Below are positions 5,435 to 28,866 of a stretch of DNA of 34,992 nucleotides, in pieces; the stretch's first letter is position 1, and each line of letters starts with the position of its first letter. The DNA is taken from the NCBI GenBank assembly GCA_030699545.1, contig JAUYMC010000156.1:1-34992 (forward strand). Reading direction: 5' to 3'. The translations under genes were made by a program, and so were the position numbers. Below the pieces are notes generated by a model, which was not told where the DNA came from, ran no database searches, and was given only the letters and a program-made list of their open reading frames with translations. The DNA is from Gemmatimonadales bacterium (GTDB lineage: Bacteria; Gemmatimonadota; Gemmatimonadetes; Gemmatimonadales; GWC2-71-9).

Positions 5435-5502
5435 CATGAACCGGCGGGTGCCTTCACCGGATGCGTCGTGGCCGGCGTCCTGCTCCGTCATAGATTGGGG
5501 GC

Positions 5503-6321
5503 ATGAGCCTCCGGATCACTCAGGTCGACGCCTTCACCGATCGCCCGTTTGCCGGGAATCCCGCCGCCGTCTGTTTCCTCCCCGCCCCGGCGGATCCGGG
5601 ATGGATGCAGAACGTCGCGCGGGAGATGAACCTCGCCGAAACCGCCTTCCTGGTCGCGCGCCCTGACGGTTATGACCTCCGTTGGTTCACCCCCGCAGTA
5701 GAGGTCGACCTGTGCGGCCATGCGACGCTCGCGAGCGCGCACGTCCTGTGGGAGGACGGACACCTCCCCGCCACGGCGCAGGCCCGCTTTCACACCAAGA
5801 GCGGGCTGCTCACCGCCGACCGCCGCGGGGCATGGATCGAACTCGATTTTCCCGCCACTCCCGTACACGCCGCGTCGCCGCCTCCGGGGCTGACCGACGC
5901 GCTCCGCGCACGCCCGACGTTTGTCGGCCGCAGCCGGTTCGACGTGTTCGTGGAGCTGGATGACGAAACGACGGTTCGCGGCCTCGCGCCCGATCTCGGC
6001 GCGCTCAGCCGCATCGACGCACGGGGCGTGATTGTGACCAGCCGCGCCGCACCCGATCAGGAATACGACTTCGTCTCCCGCTTCTTCGCGCCCCAGTCGG
6101 GTGTCCCCGAAGATCCGGTCACCGGCTCCGCGCATTGTGCCCTCGCACCGTATTGGGCCGCGCAGCTCGGAAGGATGGAGCTGGCCGGCTATCAGACGTC
6201 CTCACGCGGCGGGCTCGTGCGCGTTCGCCTCCAGGGAGAGCGGGTCCGTCTGGGGGGACAAGCCGTCACGGTGTTGCGGGGCGAGCTGTGCGACGCCGGT
6301 GAGTCCCGTTCACCAGAATAG
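5503..6321 (+). CDS. PhzF-family isomerase/epimerase-like protein
   Basis: ITQVDAFTDRPFAGNPAAVCFLP, EMNLAETAFLV, LRWFTPAVEVDLCGHATLASAHVL and PEDPVTGSAHCALAPYW are classic PhzF motifs. Confidence 0.93.
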   Translation: MSLRITQVDAFTDRPFAGNPAAVCFLPAPADPGWMQNVAREMNLAETAFLVARPDGYDLRWFTPAVEVDLCGHATLASAHVLWEDGHLPATAQARFHTKSGLLTADRRGAWIELDFPATPVHAASPPPGLTDALRARPTFVGRSRFDVFVELDDETTVRGLAPDLGALSRIDARGVIVTSRAAPDQEYDFVSRFFAPQSGVPEDPVTGSAHCALAPYWAAQLGRMELAGYQTSSRGGLVRVRLQGERVRLGGQAVTVLRGELCDAGESRSPE

Positions 6322-6342
6322 GTGTCGGGTGTCTGGTGTCAG
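6321..6342 (+). repeat. Left terminal inverted repeat (three GGTGTCN heptads)
   Basis: GGTGTCg-GGTGTCt-GGTGTCa-g, matching the right repeat at 21/22 positions. Confidence 0.85.
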
Positions 6343-6719
6343 CCAAGCCGCGCTTTGAGGGCTCGGACCAATCCCGCCAGCAGCCTGCCGACGTCACCGC
6401 TCAAGTCAAGACATCGCTGTGCTTCGGCGGAATCCACATACCCCCGCCGCAGCGCGATTGCCACCTGCGTTTCGAGTTCCATCAAGGACCCATTCGCAAT
6501 GGACAGATGATGTAGGTACTCTCGAAGATGTTCTCGCCCGTGGCCTTCGGCGATGTTGCTGGGTATCGACACCGCCGCGCGCTGGACCTGACTTGTGAGA
6601 GCAAAACGCTCGTCTCTGGGAAACCGCTTGGCAAATTCGTAAGTCATATCAGCGAGGTCCATCGCGCGCTGCCACACAGTGAGATCGCGATACGAACGGA
6701 TCTTCGATGCGACTGTCAT
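6339..6719 (-). CDS. Four-helix-bundle protein (S23 / 23S rRNA intervening-sequence protein family)
   Basis: YRDLTVWQRAMDLADMTYEFAKRFPRDERFALTSQVQRAAVSIPSNIAEGHGREHLREYLHHLSIANGSLMELETQVAIALRRGYV matches the S23/IVP consensus. Confidence 0.93.
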   Translation of the reverse strand: MTVASKIRSYRDLTVWQRAMDLADMTYEFAKRFPRDERFALTSQVQRAAVSIPSNIAEGHGREHLREYLHHLSIANGSLMELETQVAIALRRGYVDSAEAQRCLDLSGDVGRLLAGLVRALKARLG

Positions 6720-6790
6720 GCGAGCATTTTGATCGATGGATTACGAGGGACCTAACCCTTAGCGCTTGTAGTGGTACCTTATAGCGCAAC

Positions 6791-6812
6791 CTGACACCAG
6801 ACACCTGACACC
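6791..6812 (-). repeat. Right terminal inverted repeat
   Basis: CTGACACCAGACACCTGACACC, reverse complement of the left repeat with one mismatch. Confidence 0.85.
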
Positions 6813-6816
6813 TATC

Positions 6817-7770
6817 ATGCGGGCCAGGACGCGAGTTATCGGCTACGCCTGTGCCCTCGGCGCCGGCGCCGTCTGGGGCACCACCGGCCCGCTCTCGACC
6901 GCGCTGTATGCGGAGGGCGCCGCGATCACCGGCATCGGATTCTGGCGGCTCCTGCTCGGGACCGCGGCCCTCGCGATCTGGGCCGCGCTCTTCCGCCGCG
7001 ACATCTTCCGCGTCGACCGCACCGGCCTCCTGCTCATGGGCGTCCTCGGCGGCGCGCTCGTCGCACTGTTCGAGGTCGCGTACCAGTTCGGGATTGCCGG
7101 CGCCGGCGTTGCGGGCGCGGCCGCGCTCCTCTACACCGCTCCCGTCATGGTCGCGATCATCGCGAAGCCGCTGCTCGGGGAACGGCTCACCCCGCTGCGG
7201 TTCGCCCTCGCCGCCGCGGTGATGATCGGCGCCGCCATGACCGTCATGGGCAAAGCCGAGGGCGGCGGCTCGGGCAACGTCGCCCTTCCCAGCGTCTTCG
7301 TCGGCGTGCTGGGTGGACTGTTGTCCGCGGTCAGCTATGCGAGCACCACCGTGCTGGCGCGGTGGACGGTGCCGCGCTACGGCGCCTACCGGATGCTGTT
7401 CTGGGAAGCGGTGGGCGGGATCGTCATGCTCGCCATCATTCTTCCCCTCGCCGGGCATACCCCCTATCCGCCACCGACGGCCGCGGGTTGGGTCTTCACC
7501 TTTGCACTCGCCGCCGGCGGCGTGGTGCTCGCGAACTTCCTGTTCTTCGCGGGCGTCCGCCGCATCGAAGCGACGCCGACGGCGGTTGCCGCCACGATCG
7601 AGCCCGTCGTCGGGGGACTGCTCGCGCTGCTGCTGCTCGGTCAGGCGCTGACGCCGGTTGGGTGGGTGGGTCTGGTGCTCGTCGTGGGCGGTGTGGCTGC
7701 CGGCTACCTCAGGGAAGGCTCAGAACAGCAGCTCGAACCCCAGCCGGAACATGCGGGGCGGCCCGAATGA
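6817..7770 (+). CDS. EamA/DMT-superfamily transporter
   Basis: About ten TM segments; GAVWGTTGPLSTALYAEG and the C-terminal EamA repeat FFAGVRRIEATPTAVAATIEPVVGGLLALLLLGQ. Confidence 0.9.
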   Translation: MRARTRVIGYACALGAGAVWGTTGPLSTALYAEGAAITGIGFWRLLLGTAALAIWAALFRRDIFRVDRTGLLLMGVLGGALVALFEVAYQFGIAGAGVAGAAALLYTAPVMVAIIAKPLLGERLTPLRFALAAAVMIGAAMTVMGKAEGGGSGNVALPSVFVGVLGGLLSAVSYASTTVLARWTVPRYGAYRMLFWEAVGGIVMLAIILPLAGHTPYPPPTAAGWVFTFALAAGGVVLANFLFFAGVRRIEATPTAVAATIEPVVGGLLALLLLGQALTPVGWVGLVLVVGGVAAGYLREGSEQQLEPQPEHAGRPE

Positions 7771-11590: not shown

Positions 11591-13540
11591 ATGATCGTGT
11601 CGCTCGTGCTCGCCCTGCAGCAGGCACCGCTGCCGCCGCTGCCCCCCGCGTGGACGGATACATCGCCGTTCCGCCGTCTCGACCTTCCCGCGCCGAATCT
11701 GATCCGCCAGGGATCGGGCGCGCCCGGTCCCGAGTACTGGCAGCAGCGGGCCGACTATACGATCGCCGTCACGCTCGACACCGCCCGCCACGCGATCAGC
11801 GGCCGGGAAACGATCCGCTACACCAACAACTCGCCCGACACCCTGCGACATCTCTGGCTGCAGCTCGATCAGAACGTGTTCCGCGACGACAGCCGGGGGG
11901 CGTTGCTCAATCCGCCCGACGCCCGCTTCGCGGCGCGGGGATTTCAAGGCGGTTTCGCGCTGGACGGGCTGAGCGCCGTCCGGCCGTCGGGCCGTCAGTC
12001 CGTCCGGCGCGTGCCGTTGCAGAGTATCGAGAACGGGACCCTCCTCAAGGTGCTGCTCGACCGGCCCCTCGCGCCCCGCGGCAACGTCTCGCTCGAGCTG
12101 GGCTTTTCGTTTCAGGTGCCGCAGCATGGCGCCGATCGCATGGGCCGCGAGCAATTCCCCGAAGGCTGGCTGTACGAAATCGCCCAATGGTACCCGCGCG
12201 TCGCGGTCTACGACGACGTGCGCGGCTGGAACACCGAGCAGTACCTCGGCCAGGGCGAGTTCTATCTCGAGTACGGTGACTTCGATTTCGCGATCACGGT
12301 GCCCCGCGGCTTCATCGTCGCCGGGACGGGCACGCTCGTGAATCCCACCGAGGTGCTCACGGCGGCGCAGCGGGCCCGGCTGGCGCGCGCGCTGCGCTCC
12401 GACACCACCATCGCGATCATCGCCAAGGACGAAGTCGGCCGGCCCGCGACGCGCCCGGTGGGAACCGCCCCCACGCTGACGTGGCGCTTCACGGCGAAGA
12501 ATGTGCGGGATGTGGCGTGGGCCACCGCGCCCAACTTCATTTGGGACGCGAGCGGCTGGAACGGCATCCTGATGCAGTCGTTCTATCCGCCCGTCGCCGA
12601 TTCGCTGTGGCGGGAATCCACGCGCATGGTCCGGCAATCGATCAAGCACTACGCGGAGAAGTGGTTCATGTATCCCTATCCCACCGCCATCAACGTGAAC
12701 GGACCGGTCGGCGGGATGGAGTATCCGATGATCGTGTTCTGCGCGAATCGCACGAGCCGCGAGGGGCTGTACGGTGTCACGTCGCACGAGCTCGGGCACG
12801 AGTGGTTCCCGATGGCGGTCGGCAACAACGAGCGGCTGCACGCCTGGATGGACGAAGGGTTCAACAGCTTCATCAACATCTACGCCGCCCGCGAGTACTT
12901 CCCCGACCGCGACTGGCTGCGGACGCGGGGTCAGGCTGCGGCGTGGGCCGAGTTTGCCGCCACCGGCCGCGACCAGCCGCCGATGCTGCCCCCCGACCGG
13001 ATCACGCCGCAGCTGCTGGGGCAGATCGCGTACACCAAGCCGGCGGTCGGGCTCTATCTCCTGCGCCATCAGATCGCCGACTCCGCGCGCTTCGATGCGG
13101 CGTTCCGCGAGTACATCCGCCGCTGGATCTTCAAGCATCCCACGCCGGCGGATTTCTTCCGGTCGATGGAGGACGGCCTGGGCGAGGATCTGTCGTGGTT
13201 CTGGCGCGGGTGGTTTTACCGGACGGACGTCGTCGACCTGGCGGTGGACTCCGTCCGCACCCGGCGCGACTCGACCGGGACTCTGACCGGCATCTTCCTC
13301 TCGAGCCCCGGCGGCCTGCCCATGCCCGTGCAGATGCGGCTCGGCTTTGCCGACGGCACGTCGGAGGACGTCCGGCTTCCCGTCGAAGCGTGGTACGAGG
13401 GGCGGCGCTTTCTCTACGTCCGGCGGTTCGCGAGCGAGCTGATCAGCGTGGACATCGATCCGGCGCGGGATTTTCCCGACGTGCGGCGCGGCAATAACGG
13501 ATGGAGCAAATCGCCGGCGCGCCCGCCGGCCCAGCCTTGA
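11591..13540 (+). CDS. M1-family (gluzincin) metallopeptidase
   Basis: GPVGGMEYPMIVF substrate motif; HELGHEWFPMAVGNNERLHAWMDEGFNSF (HExxH-x18-E). RBS-like GGAGAC before ATG 11591. Confidence 0.92.
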   Translation: MIVSLVLALQQAPLPPLPPAWTDTSPFRRLDLPAPNLIRQGSGAPGPEYWQQRADYTIAVTLDTARHAISGRETIRYTNNSPDTLRHLWLQLDQNVFRDDSRGALLNPPDARFAARGFQGGFALDGLSAVRPSGRQSVRRVPLQSIENGTLLKVLLDRPLAPRGNVSLELGFSFQVPQHGADRMGREQFPEGWLYEIAQWYPRVAVYDDVRGWNTEQYLGQGEFYLEYGDFDFAITVPRGFIVAGTGTLVNPTEVLTAAQRARLARALRSDTTIAIIAKDEVGRPATRPVGTAPTLTWRFTAKNVRDVAWATAPNFIWDASGWNGILMQSFYPPVADSLWRESTRMVRQSIKHYAEKWFMYPYPTAINVNGPVGGMEYPMIVFCANRTSREGLYGVTSHELGHEWFPMAVGNNERLHAWMDEGFNSFINIYAAREYFPDRDWLRTRGQAAAWAEFAATGRDQPPMLPPDRITPQLLGQIAYTKPAVGLYLLRHQIADSARFDAAFREYIRRWIFKHPTPADFFRSMEDGLGEDLSWFWRGWFYRTDVVDLAVDSVRTRRDSTGTLTGIFLSSPGGLPMPVQMRLGFADGTSEDVRLPVEAWYEGRRFLYVRRFASELISVDIDPARDFPDVRRGNNGWSKSPARPPAQP

Positions 13541-25533: not shown

Positions 25534-27898
25534 TCACCGCGTCATCGGGAAGGCGCTGCGGAAAGTCGATGCCGTGGCGAAAGTGACCGGCGCCACCCGC
25601 TTCGCCGACGACCTCGCCCTGCCCCGCATGCTGTACGCCAAGCTGCTCCGCAGCACCCAGCCCCACGCGCGCATCCTCGCGATCGACGTGACGGCGGCCG
25701 CGCGCCTCCCCGGTGTCCGGGCGGTGTTGACCGGCCGTGATCTCCCGATTCCCTTCGGGATTCTTCCCGTATCGCAGGATGAGCACGCCCTCTGCCTGGA
25801 CAAAGTCCGCTTCATCGGCGACCCCGTCGCGGCGGTGGCCGCGACGAGCGAGGAGATCGCCACCGCCGCAGCCGAATTGATCCGGGTCGACTACGAGCCG
25901 CTGCGGACGTTCGCGTCTGCCGAAGAGGCGGTCGCGAACGCCGAGCCCCGCATCCACGACTACGGCGACCGCGGCAACCTGCACAAGATCGTCGATCTCG
26001 AGTTCGGCGACGTCGCCGAGGCGTTCGAGCATGCCGATCTGGTGCGTGAGGATCTCTTTTTTTTCGAAGGCAACACGCACCTCCCGATGGAACAGCACGC
26101 CGCCCTCGCGACCTACGCCCCGGACGGCAAGCTGACGTTGTGGAGCTCCACCCAGACACCGCACTACGTCCACCGCGCGCTGGCGAACGTGCTGGAGCTC
26201 CCGCCCGCGCGCATTCGCGTCATCGCGACCCCCAACGGCGGTGGATTTGGCGGCAAGAGCGATCCATTCAGCCATGAGATCGCGGTCGCCAAACTCGCGA
26301 TGGTCACGGGGCGGCCCGTGAAGATCACGCTGACGCGGGAAGAGGTGTTCTACTGCCATCGCGGCCGGCATCCCACGCTCATGTCCATCAAGACCGGCGT
26401 GAAGCGCGACGGCTCCATCACGGGCATGCACTTCAAGTCGCTGCTCGACGGCGGGGCCTACGGGTCGTACGGCGTGGCGAGCACGTACTACACGGGTGCG
26501 CTGCAGACCGTCACCTATCAGGTTCCCCGTTATCGCTTTCAAGGCGCGCGCGCGTTCACCAACAAGGCGCCCTGCGGACCCAAGCGCGGCCACGGAACGC
26601 CGCAGCCGCGGTTCGCCCTCGAGGTGCACGTCGACAAGATCGCCGAGCAGCTCGGCATCGATCCCGCGGAGCTGCGTCTCAACACACTGGTGCCGCGCGA
26701 CTCGTTGACGGCCAACTACCTGCGCGTGGGGTCGATGGGCCTCGGCACGTGTATCGAGAAGGTCGTGCAGGGGTCGGAGTGGAAGAAGAAATTTCGGAAA
26801 CTGCCGCACGGCCGTGGCGTGGGGCTTGCCTGCTCCAGCTACATCTCGGGCGCCGGGCTGCCGATCTACTGGAACAACATGCCGCACTCCGGCGTGCAGC
26901 TGAAATGCGACCGCGGCGGCGGCGTCACCGTCTTCTGCGGCTCGACCGAGATCGGCCAGGGGTCGGATTCGATCCTGGCCTACATCGTGGCCGAAGTGCT
27001 CGGCATCGATCCCTTCCACATCGCGATCGTCACCGCCGACACCGAGCTCACGCCGGTGGATCTCGGCAGCTATTCCAGCCGGGTGACCTTGATGAGCGGC
27101 AACGCCGCGCTGCAGGCGGCCGAGCGCGCCCGCGAGCTGCTCGCCCTCCACGCCGCGCGCCGCCTCGAGATCCCCGGCGATCGCGTCGTGTTCGCCGATG
27201 GCCGCGTGTTCGACAGCCGGGATCCCGACACCGGGATGAGCTTCGCCGAGGCCGTCCAGCACGCCGAAGCCGCCGAGGGGACGGTGGGCACGGTGGGATC
27301 GTACACGCCGCCGATGAGCCCGGGGAAATACCGCGGCGCCGGCGTGGGGCCGTCGCCCGCCTACTCCTACAGCGCCTGCGTCGCGGAAGTCGACGTCGAT
27401 CCCGCGACCGGCATCGTGCGCGTCCCGACGATCTGGATCGCGCACGACCTCGGCCGGGCGATCAATGCGGCGGCCGCGATCGGCCAGGTCGAAGGCTCCG
27501 TCTACATGGGCCTGGGCGAGGCGTTGATGGAGGAGATGGCGTATCGCGGCAACCGCAACGTCGTGCACAAGATTCCGAGCCTGCTCGAGTACAAGAGCCC
27601 GACGACGCTGGAGATGTGCGACGTCGTCACGTACTTGATCGAGGATCCCGACCCCAACGGACCGTTCGGCGCCAAAGAAGTCGGCCAGGGTCCGCTCCTG
27701 CCGGTGATGCCGGCCGTGGCCAACGCGGTGTACGACGCCGTCGGGGTGCGCGTGGACGAGGTCCCGATCACGCCGGAGAAGGTGCTGAAAGCACTGCGGG
27801 GAAAGGGGAAGGGGGAAGCGGGACGGGTGGGCCCCACGCGCTTCCCGGATATCCCCTGGCCCGAACCAGTCCGCGTGCCGCCTCCCTGGGAGGCCTAG
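25520..27898 (+). CDS. hcrA: Molybdopterin-binding large subunit, 4-hydroxybenzoyl-CoA reductase alpha-like
   Basis: VTGATRFADDLALPRMLYAKLLRSTQPHARIL, GGGFGGKSDPFSHEIAVAKLA, GSTEIGQGSDSILAYIVAE, EVDVDPATGIVRV. Overlaps hcrC by 14 nt. Confidence 0.88.
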   Translation: MAGSNHRVIGKALRKVDAVAKVTGATRFADDLALPRMLYAKLLRSTQPHARILAIDVTAAARLPGVRAVLTGRDLPIPFGILPVSQDEHALCLDKVRFIGDPVAAVAATSEEIATAAAELIRVDYEPLRTFASAEEAVANAEPRIHDYGDRGNLHKIVDLEFGDVAEAFEHADLVREDLFFFEGNTHLPMEQHAALATYAPDGKLTLWSSTQTPHYVHRALANVLELPPARIRVIATPNGGGFGGKSDPFSHEIAVAKLAMVTGRPVKITLTREEVFYCHRGRHPTLMSIKTGVKRDGSITGMHFKSLLDGGAYGSYGVASTYYTGALQTVTYQVPRYRFQGARAFTNKAPCGPKRGHGTPQPRFALEVHVDKIAEQLGIDPAELRLNTLVPRDSLTANYLRVGSMGLGTCIEKVVQGSEWKKKFRKLPHGRGVGLACSSYISGAGLPIYWNNMPHSGVQLKCDRGGGVTVFCGSTEIGQGSDSILAYIVAEVLGIDPFHIAIVTADTELTPVDLGSYSSRVTLMSGNAALQAAERARELLALHAARRLEIPGDRVVFADGRVFDSRDPDTGMSFAEAVQHAEAAEGTVGTVGSYTPPMSPGKYRGAGVGPSPAYSYSACVAEVDVDPATGIVRVPTIWIAHDLGRAINAAAAIGQVEGSVYMGLGEALMEEMAYRGNRNVVHKIPSLLEYKSPTTLEMCDVVTYLIEDPDPNGPFGAKEVGQGPLLPVMPAVANAVYDAVGVRVDEVPITPEKVLKALRGKGKGEAGRVGPTRFPDIPWPEPVRVPPPWEA

Positions 27899-28866
27899 TG
27901 CTCCGCCTCCCCGCGTTCGCGTACTTGCAGCCCAAGACCCTGGCCGAGGCCATCGCGATGAAAGCCGACGCGGGGCCGTCGGGAATGTATGTCGCGGTCG
28001 GCACTGATCTCTACCCGTACATGAAGCGGCGGCACGAGGACCCGACGCTCGTGATCTCCCTGATGGGGATTCCCGATCTGCGACGTGCCGATGACCGGGT
28101 CGTGGGTGCCGGTCTCACGCTCACCGAGTTGGCCGTCGGGCCGTCAGCCCGTCCGGCCGTTGTTGCCGACGCTGCCCGCCTCGTCTCCACGCCCCTGCTC
28201 CGCAACATGGGCACCCTCGGCGGCAATCTCTGCCTCGACACGCGCTGCAACTACTACAACCAGTCGTATGAGTGGCGGAAGTCGATCGACTTCTGCATGA
28301 AGAAGGAAGGGCACATCTGCTGGGTGGCGCCCTCGTCGCCGCGCTGCTGGGCGGTCAGCTCGTCGGACATTGCCCCGGTGATGGTCGCGATCGGCGCCGA
28401 GTACCGTCTCGTGGGGCCGCAGGGCGAGCGGATCGTGCCGGCCGCGCGGTTCTATCACAACGACGGGATCAATTATCTCACCAAGCAGCCGGACGAGATC
28501 CTGGTGGACGTGCGCCTCCCCGCCCCGAACGGATGGGACGCCGCTTATCACAAGCTGCGGCGCCGCGGATCGTTCGACTTTCCGGTGCTGGGCGTGGCGG
28601 CGTGGATTCGCTGGGACGGCACGGAGGTCAGCGACGCGAAGATCGTGCTCGGCGGCGTCGCGAGCTATCCGCAGGAAGTGCCGGAAGCCGGGGCCGTACT
28701 CAGGGGTGTGACGCTTGGGACGGCATCCATTGCGGCCGCCGCGGAAGCCGCTTATCGTCCGTCAAAGCCGATGGACAACACGGATTTCGACTTGTCATGG
28801 CGCAAACAGATGACACGCGTGTACGTCGCGCGGGCGCTCGAGGAGTTGCGGCAGCGGCGGGTCTGA
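27898..28866 (+). CDS. hcrB: FAD-binding subunit with extra Cys loop, 4-hydroxybenzoyl-CoA reductase beta-like
   Basis: GTG 27898 in TAGTG overlap; STPLLRNMGTLGGNLCLDTRCNYYNQSYEWRKSIDFCMKKEGHICWVAPSSPRCWAVSSSDIAPVMVAIGA contains the HcrB-type insertion. Confidence 0.88.
   Translation: MLRLPAFAYLQPKTLAEAIAMKADAGPSGMYVAVGTDLYPYMKRRHEDPTLVISLMGIPDLRRADDRVVGAGLTLTELAVGPSARPAVVADAARLVSTPLLRNMGTLGGNLCLDTRCNYYNQSYEWRKSIDFCMKKEGHICWVAPSSPRCWAVSSSDIAPVMVAIGAEYRLVGPQGERIVPAARFYHNDGINYLTKQPDEILVDVRLPAPNGWDAAYHKLRRRGSFDFPVLGVAAWIRWDGTEVSDAKIVLGGVASYPQEVPEAGAVLRGVTLGTASIAAAAEAAYRPSKPMDNTDFDLSWRKQMTRVYVARALEELRQRRV

Follow-up and report, generated by a model that had tools for sequence, protein, structure and literature searches.

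The window, the 34,992-nt stretch of Gemmatimonadales DNA analyzed here, carries a gene of the S23/IVP family, known so far mainly from inserts in rRNA genes, between two inverted arrays of a 7-nt repeat. From comparison with its counterparts in other genomes and plasmids, we conclude that this arm-S23-arm block is very probably a mobile cassette. The best explanation of the observed arrangement is a cassette of about 500 bp with S23 as its one gene and with two opposed repeat arrays as its ends; the repeat unit is short, in most cases 7 nt, and has a G-containing core (YAGG or YAGT). In the window, the cassette is located between phzF and eamA, not within a 23S rRNA gene (Table 1).

Table 1. 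Coordinates of the cassette in the window and of the features around it
Feature	Position	Strand	Remarks
Gap 5' of phzF, empty in the window	5435..5502	.	Five relatives have an orthologous cassette there
phzF	5503..6321	+	3' end unlike that of relatives; stop codon directly adjoins the cassette
Left heptad arm, ATA GGTGTCG GGTGTCT GGTGTCA G	6318..6342	+	Contains the last phzF stop bases and the S23 stop (minus strand)
S23/IVP four-helix-bundle gene, 126 aa	6339..6719	-	PF05635; closest solved structure 2GSC
Right heptad arm	6791..6815	-	Inverted copy of the left arm, one mismatch
eamA transporter gene	6817..7770	+	ATG comes after the cassette; in several relatives a GTG start overlaps the phzF TGA stop

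As described in the initial annotation, a 25-bp inverted repeat with one mismatch, each arm of which consists of three GGTGTCN heptads, encloses the single S23 gene. It was the only one of its kind in the real window (25 bp, no more than one mismatch, arms 1 kb apart or less), and 20 shuffles of the window contained none. The heptad pair GGTGTCNGGTGTC gave 5 matches against 0.30 expected, and the GGTGTCN triple had no second occurrence in the 3.16-Mb assembly. We also confirmed that a TA dinucleotide lies outside both ends of the 22-bp core and that the cassette interior is more AT-rich than its flanking genes (57% versus 69 to 71% GC). The phzF stop codon TAG (6319-6321) indeed shares a base with the element, its G being the first base of the first heptad, and between the core end at 6812 and the ATG of eamA there are four bases, TATC; absent from the earlier description was that the left arm also contains the stop codon of S23 (6339-6341). 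S23 is the sole gene inside the cassette, and no transposase was found there. A phage collection gave no match, and phage carriage is thus not supported; PADLOC returned no defense-system match, Rfam only a chance match far below the cutoff, and cmscan of four loci only tRNAs. Treated as single-stranded DNA, the cassette folds to a closed stem-loop (z = -3.2), and its ends can pair.

The arm-gene-arm block was found to be present or absent at about eleven sites in Gemmatimonadota and cyanobacterial plasmids, with the insert ending at the repeats or a few bases off. The earlier proposal of a free-standing mobile unit lacking a transposase is thus upheld. In five relatives of the window's genome, orthologous S23 genes (71 to 78% identical, with GGTGTC arms) lie upstream of phzF, whereas the window copy lies downstream of it, at a junction where all relatives that have this junction carry none. 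The refuting condition named in the initial annotation, synteny of the S23 gene between phzF and eamA conserved among relatives, is therefore not what was observed, and this outcome favors mobility. In several relatives the phzF stop overlaps the eamA start, and the window cassette splits this pair. Genome G001 has no copy at either place, its empty upstream site reading GGATA followed directly by GCTTAGATT. In the S23 tree, the window copy grouped with those linked to phzF in G008 and G009 (support 100/99), and the divergence of S23 did not match that of the flanks: G008 and G009 are near in S23 and distant in eamA, and G008 and G003 show the reverse. Short flanks beyond the heptads (CCAGRATA / TATCAWGCG) are common to the window and G009 cassettes, indicating that the moved segment may slightly exceed the arms. 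Filled and empty alleles were also observed at other sites of the genus, namely L104 versus L106, L108 versus L101, and L079 versus L082, L116 and L077, at the L132 site, and at the L107 site, where three genomes have the insert and six lack it. At another place (L275, L276 and L277), G009, G008 and G002 have an unrelated hairpin repeat (GTCATCCTGAGC...GCTCAGGATGAC) in the gap that is occupied in G004 and G006 by an S23 cassette.

The cleanest site was found in Nostocales conjugative plasmids that are about 97% identical to each other, with the arm-S23-arm block present in L222 and L226 and absent from L224, L225, L232 and L233. Here the empty allele reads AAAAAGTAAT joined to TAACAAATA, and the filled allele has the exact arm-S23-arm unit between two copies of GTAAT; L227 carries a decayed copy of the cassette at this site. 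Homologous cassettes lie alone at unrelated plasmid sites in L228, L229 and L230. Among laboratory strains, Nostoc PCC 7120 has the empty site on its plasmid pCC7120beta, and Trichormus variabilis ATCC 29413 carries a cassette. Three further plasmid sites (B to D) were compared at lower identity (about 83 to 91% in BLAST rows). Site D has a clean insert within a base or two. The empty alleles of sites B and C have diverged (about 90% identity) too far for an exact boundary, and their junction sequence is not that of a clean insertion. On two Nostoc plasmids (L231, 1995-2185; L235, 1500-1700), the arms of the S23 cassette surround structured noncoding DNA without S23, which indicates that S23 need not be inside; by eye, part of this noncoding cargo resembles IS605-type ends. 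Identical S23 proteins on two plasmids of PCC 7120 were rejected as evidence of transposition, since they are linked to an ISL3 transposase and have no clear arms. In the Nostocales plasmids L217 (1905-3435) and L273, an S23 cassette stands directly behind a tyrosine recombinase gene, L273 having several right-arm arrays.

Insertions were concentrated at gene ends, the distance from the outer boundary to a facing stop codon being at most 5 nt in 53% of insertions versus 10% of random intergenic positions (Fisher counts were rounded from these percentages). This preference may reflect target choice, selection, or both. The TA duplication suggested in the initial annotation did not prove general: no target duplication of constant length was found, the insert being flanked by GTAAT at one plasmid site and by TA at some further sites, with no duplication elsewhere.

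Three further S23 genes of the window's own genome also have inverted arms, with a different short repeat every time, and this served as the lead for a wider survey of 172 S23 genes from the window's family and many other phyla, 156 of them with sufficient flank. Strong flanking inverted repeats, defined by a score of 36 or more, were present at 64% of the 78 S23 genes from the family, compared to 1% of 203 neighboring control genes, and at 69% of the 78 from other phyla, compared to 0% of 323 controls. About a third of the S23 genes had no strong inverted repeat at this threshold; some of these may be decayed or domesticated. A motif scan near all 172 genes detected no conserved 23S rRNA motifs.

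Although the arm sequence differs at almost every locus, even inside one genome (51 distinct units in 82 period-7 arms), the arms follow a common grammar. In other phyla, arm self-identity was 0.68 at lag 7 and 0.67 at lag 14, and in the window's family, where longer units occur too, it was 0.44 and 0.43, respectively; values at the remaining lags were mostly between 0.24 and 0.36. The 82 period-7 arms have in common the consensus NNN[T/C][A/G]G[G/T] (score of 232 versus a null of 157 ± 4), one position of which is G in 96% of the arms. Unit sequence was correlated with S23 sequence (Mantel r of 0.39), and a unit is common to close S23 relatives but not to distant ones, from which it follows that the unit changes over time but remains matched between the two arms. 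The correlation itself could stem from shared descent. Considered as a device for placing stop codons in all frames, the 7-nt period gave a suggestive result that is insufficient for the pattern, with such stops in 28% of arms versus 16% in the null (standard deviation of 4%).

The S23 protein of the window matched PF05635 (4.8e-35, 120.4 bits; curated cutoff, 33.8) and TIGR02436 (113.4 bits; curated cutoff, 24), and its nearest solved structures are 2RLD and 2GSC, the latter an S23 protein of X. campestris. These solved relatives are pentamers. Seven polar residues (Q44, R47, S51, N55, E58, S78 and E81) are kept in 98 to 100% of 166 sequences and may make up an active site or a pocket for binding; no recognized catalytic motif was found in S23. 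The gene is under purifying selection, with a dN/dS of about 0.08 to 0.13 in the pairs whose synonymous changes are not saturated. A relative of S23 is Avd, from diversity-generating retroelements (PMC10053308), and we observed this likeness in matches to the bAvd profile (3.8e-8, below the cutoff of that profile) and to the PHROG Avd profile (1e-13).

Heptad tracts also occur without S23. Their density was 2.07 per kb near S23 genes versus 0.157 per kb more than 1 kb away, a contrast that is a lower bound because some of the distant tracts adjoin S23 genes dropped as duplicates. Away from S23, random stretches of family genomes contained 18 tracts in 258 kb where the genome bears S23 and 2 in 321 kb where it lacks S23 (P = 4e-5, by a statistic that ignores phylogeny). 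Many of these S23-less tracts are short hairpins with unrelated loops, which could have originated by slippage without S23. Around L118 (G003:C1), several GGGAAAC/GGGACAC hairpins lie within a few kilobases of an S23 gene, as if locally spread.

Taken as a whole, the explanation that we favor, with moderate confidence, is that of a mobile DNA cassette whose arms are bound by S23, which delivers it to new sites. That S23 recognizes the arms appears reasonably probable, given their association, the common grammar and the correlation between unit and protein. The S23 pentamer would bind the DNA of the repeat arms, with a hairpin or an exposed single strand as the probable form, and the exact unit is free to drift provided that both arms drift together. 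Delivery to new sites might then be carried out by host replication or repair enzymes or by an unrecognized catalytic site of S23 itself, although we consider it doubtful that S23 is the catalyst. Hairpins that have similar arms but no S23 would ride along as passengers mobilized in trans, by analogy with REPINs and their RAYTs. Since S23 is possibly the mobility protein, the term nonautonomous may not apply to the cassette.

A different, rather unlikely possibility is that the cassette is a passive MITE-like unit moved by a host transposase in trans, most plausibly a Y1/HUH enzyme of the IS200/IS605 or RAYT type that recognizes hairpin ends, with S23 as mere cargo. Single-strand transposition would fit the hairpin ends and the absence of a consistent target duplication, the two Nostoc plasmids with noncoding cargo between the same arms are in line with it, and Y1_Tnp is commoner in S23-bearing family genomes (58/87) than in S23-lacking ones (4/16; Fisher P = 0.004). 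However, in G025 and G027, which are incomplete genomes with 9 to 10 S23 copies, Y1_Tnp was not detected. Moreover, a sequence-specific transposase does not explain why the arms vary from locus to locus, and the purifying selection on S23 and the agreement of its sequence with the unit also speak against this possibility.

The initial annotation had also considered a structured-RNA route. By such a route, a transcribed stem-loop would be reverse transcribed, with S23 acting like Avd beside a reverse transcriptase. The relationship between S23 and Avd (PMC10053308) and the closed stem-loop fold speak for such a route, but selection on an RNA stem is expected to leave an excess of G.T among arm mismatches, and none was seen: the 278 transition-type mismatches on the sense strand at 120 loci comprised 144 G.T and 134 A.C. 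RNA-stem selection on the arms is accordingly not supported, and neither is a reverse transcriptase in trans, since most S23 carriers lack one: RVT_1 turned up in no more than 13 of the 103 family genomes, and not in G003 despite its 17 S23 matches. We thus regard this route as highly improbable and consider it likely that the arms act as DNA rather than RNA. Already strongly disfavored, finally, is the idea that nothing moves, that S23 genes merely lie in places that gather hairpins made by slippage (terminators or quadruplex repeats) and that the window case arose by duplication followed by loss. Heptameric repeats near stop codons have been reported without association with mobile elements (PMC4692102), and the short flanks common to the window and G009 are as in a duplicated segment. 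Nevertheless, the presence or absence of whole blocks at about eleven sites, the same cassette at unrelated sites, the control genes without such arms and the conflict between the phylogenies of cassette and flanks all argue against it.

Among known systems, the intervening sequences (IVSs) of 23S rRNA, such as that of Coxiella burnetii, are similar to the cassettes described here in having an S23-family open reading frame within terminal inverted repeats, a size of about 430 to 500 nt and a sporadic distribution (PMC4990558); Warrier et al. state that IVS mobility is hypothetical (PMC4990558). In contrast, none of our 172 S23 genes lies near conserved 23S motifs, and the cassette arms are heptad arrays at gene ends whose complementarity has no RNA signature. 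The ends of an IVS form an RNA stem that RNase III cleaves; those of the cassette can pair, but the arm mismatches at 120 loci carry no mark of selection at the RNA level. Rehm et al. (2015) described G-rich tandem 7-nt repeats in Xanthomonas and Nostoc that are intergenic, lie near stop codons and often form inverted pairs (70 cases in X. campestris), and interpreted them as quadruplex repeats with no mobile-element association (PMC4692102). In tandem 7-nt units, proximity to stops and inverted pairing these resemble the S23 cassette arms, but no link to S23 was made (PMC4692102). The REPIN/RAYT system, with dispersed hairpins that depend on one gene in trans, provides an analogy only, since the sequence of REPINs is constant within a family and their transposase is of the Y1 type, whereas S23 cassettes have locus-variable units and S23 as their only gene. 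Diversity-generating retroelements encode a four-helix-bundle relative of S23, Avd, but the S23 cassette has neither their reverse transcriptase nor their template or variable repeat. Like MITEs and insertion sequences, S23 cassettes are short, have inverted ends and are present or absent at orthologous sites, yet they lack a transposase gene, a fixed terminal sequence and a consistent target duplication. Our search of the open literature (subscription journals and preprints were outside its scope) brought up no account of S23 genes flanked by heptad arms. A 23S rRNA IVP domain is mentioned in a CRISPR discovery paper, in a figure legend of CRISPR-linked proteins (PMC10910872).

The favored explanation would join two orphans, the S23/IVP family, whose role has been unclear since the discovery of rRNA IVSs, and the frequent bacterial heptameric repeats, which have no accepted cause. 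A prediction that follows is a system of DNA mobility whose ends vary in sequence and which has no recognizable transposase, testable in laboratory cyanobacteria with filled and empty plasmids. The explanation would also account for many small insertions at gene ends, including the split of the overlapping gene pair in the window. Tentatively, and with slightly less than even confidence, we extend it to the view that a widespread, hitherto unrecognized class of transposons has S23 proteins as its mobility factors, recognizes a grammar (a YAGG-type core every 7 nt in inverted arrays) instead of a fixed sequence, moves as DNA to gene ends and mobilizes S23-less hairpins in trans, with the rRNA IVSs being members that landed in 23S.

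Elsewhere in the window, period-7 or period-8 tracts with no inverted partner nearby lie in coding sequence at 27797-27825, 11974-12004 and 28131-28155 and are perhaps solo arms. At L091 (G003:C39), possibly a nest of decaying copies, three matches to S23 are crowded into 3.7 kb, and the profile search showed an in-frame TGA in two of these.
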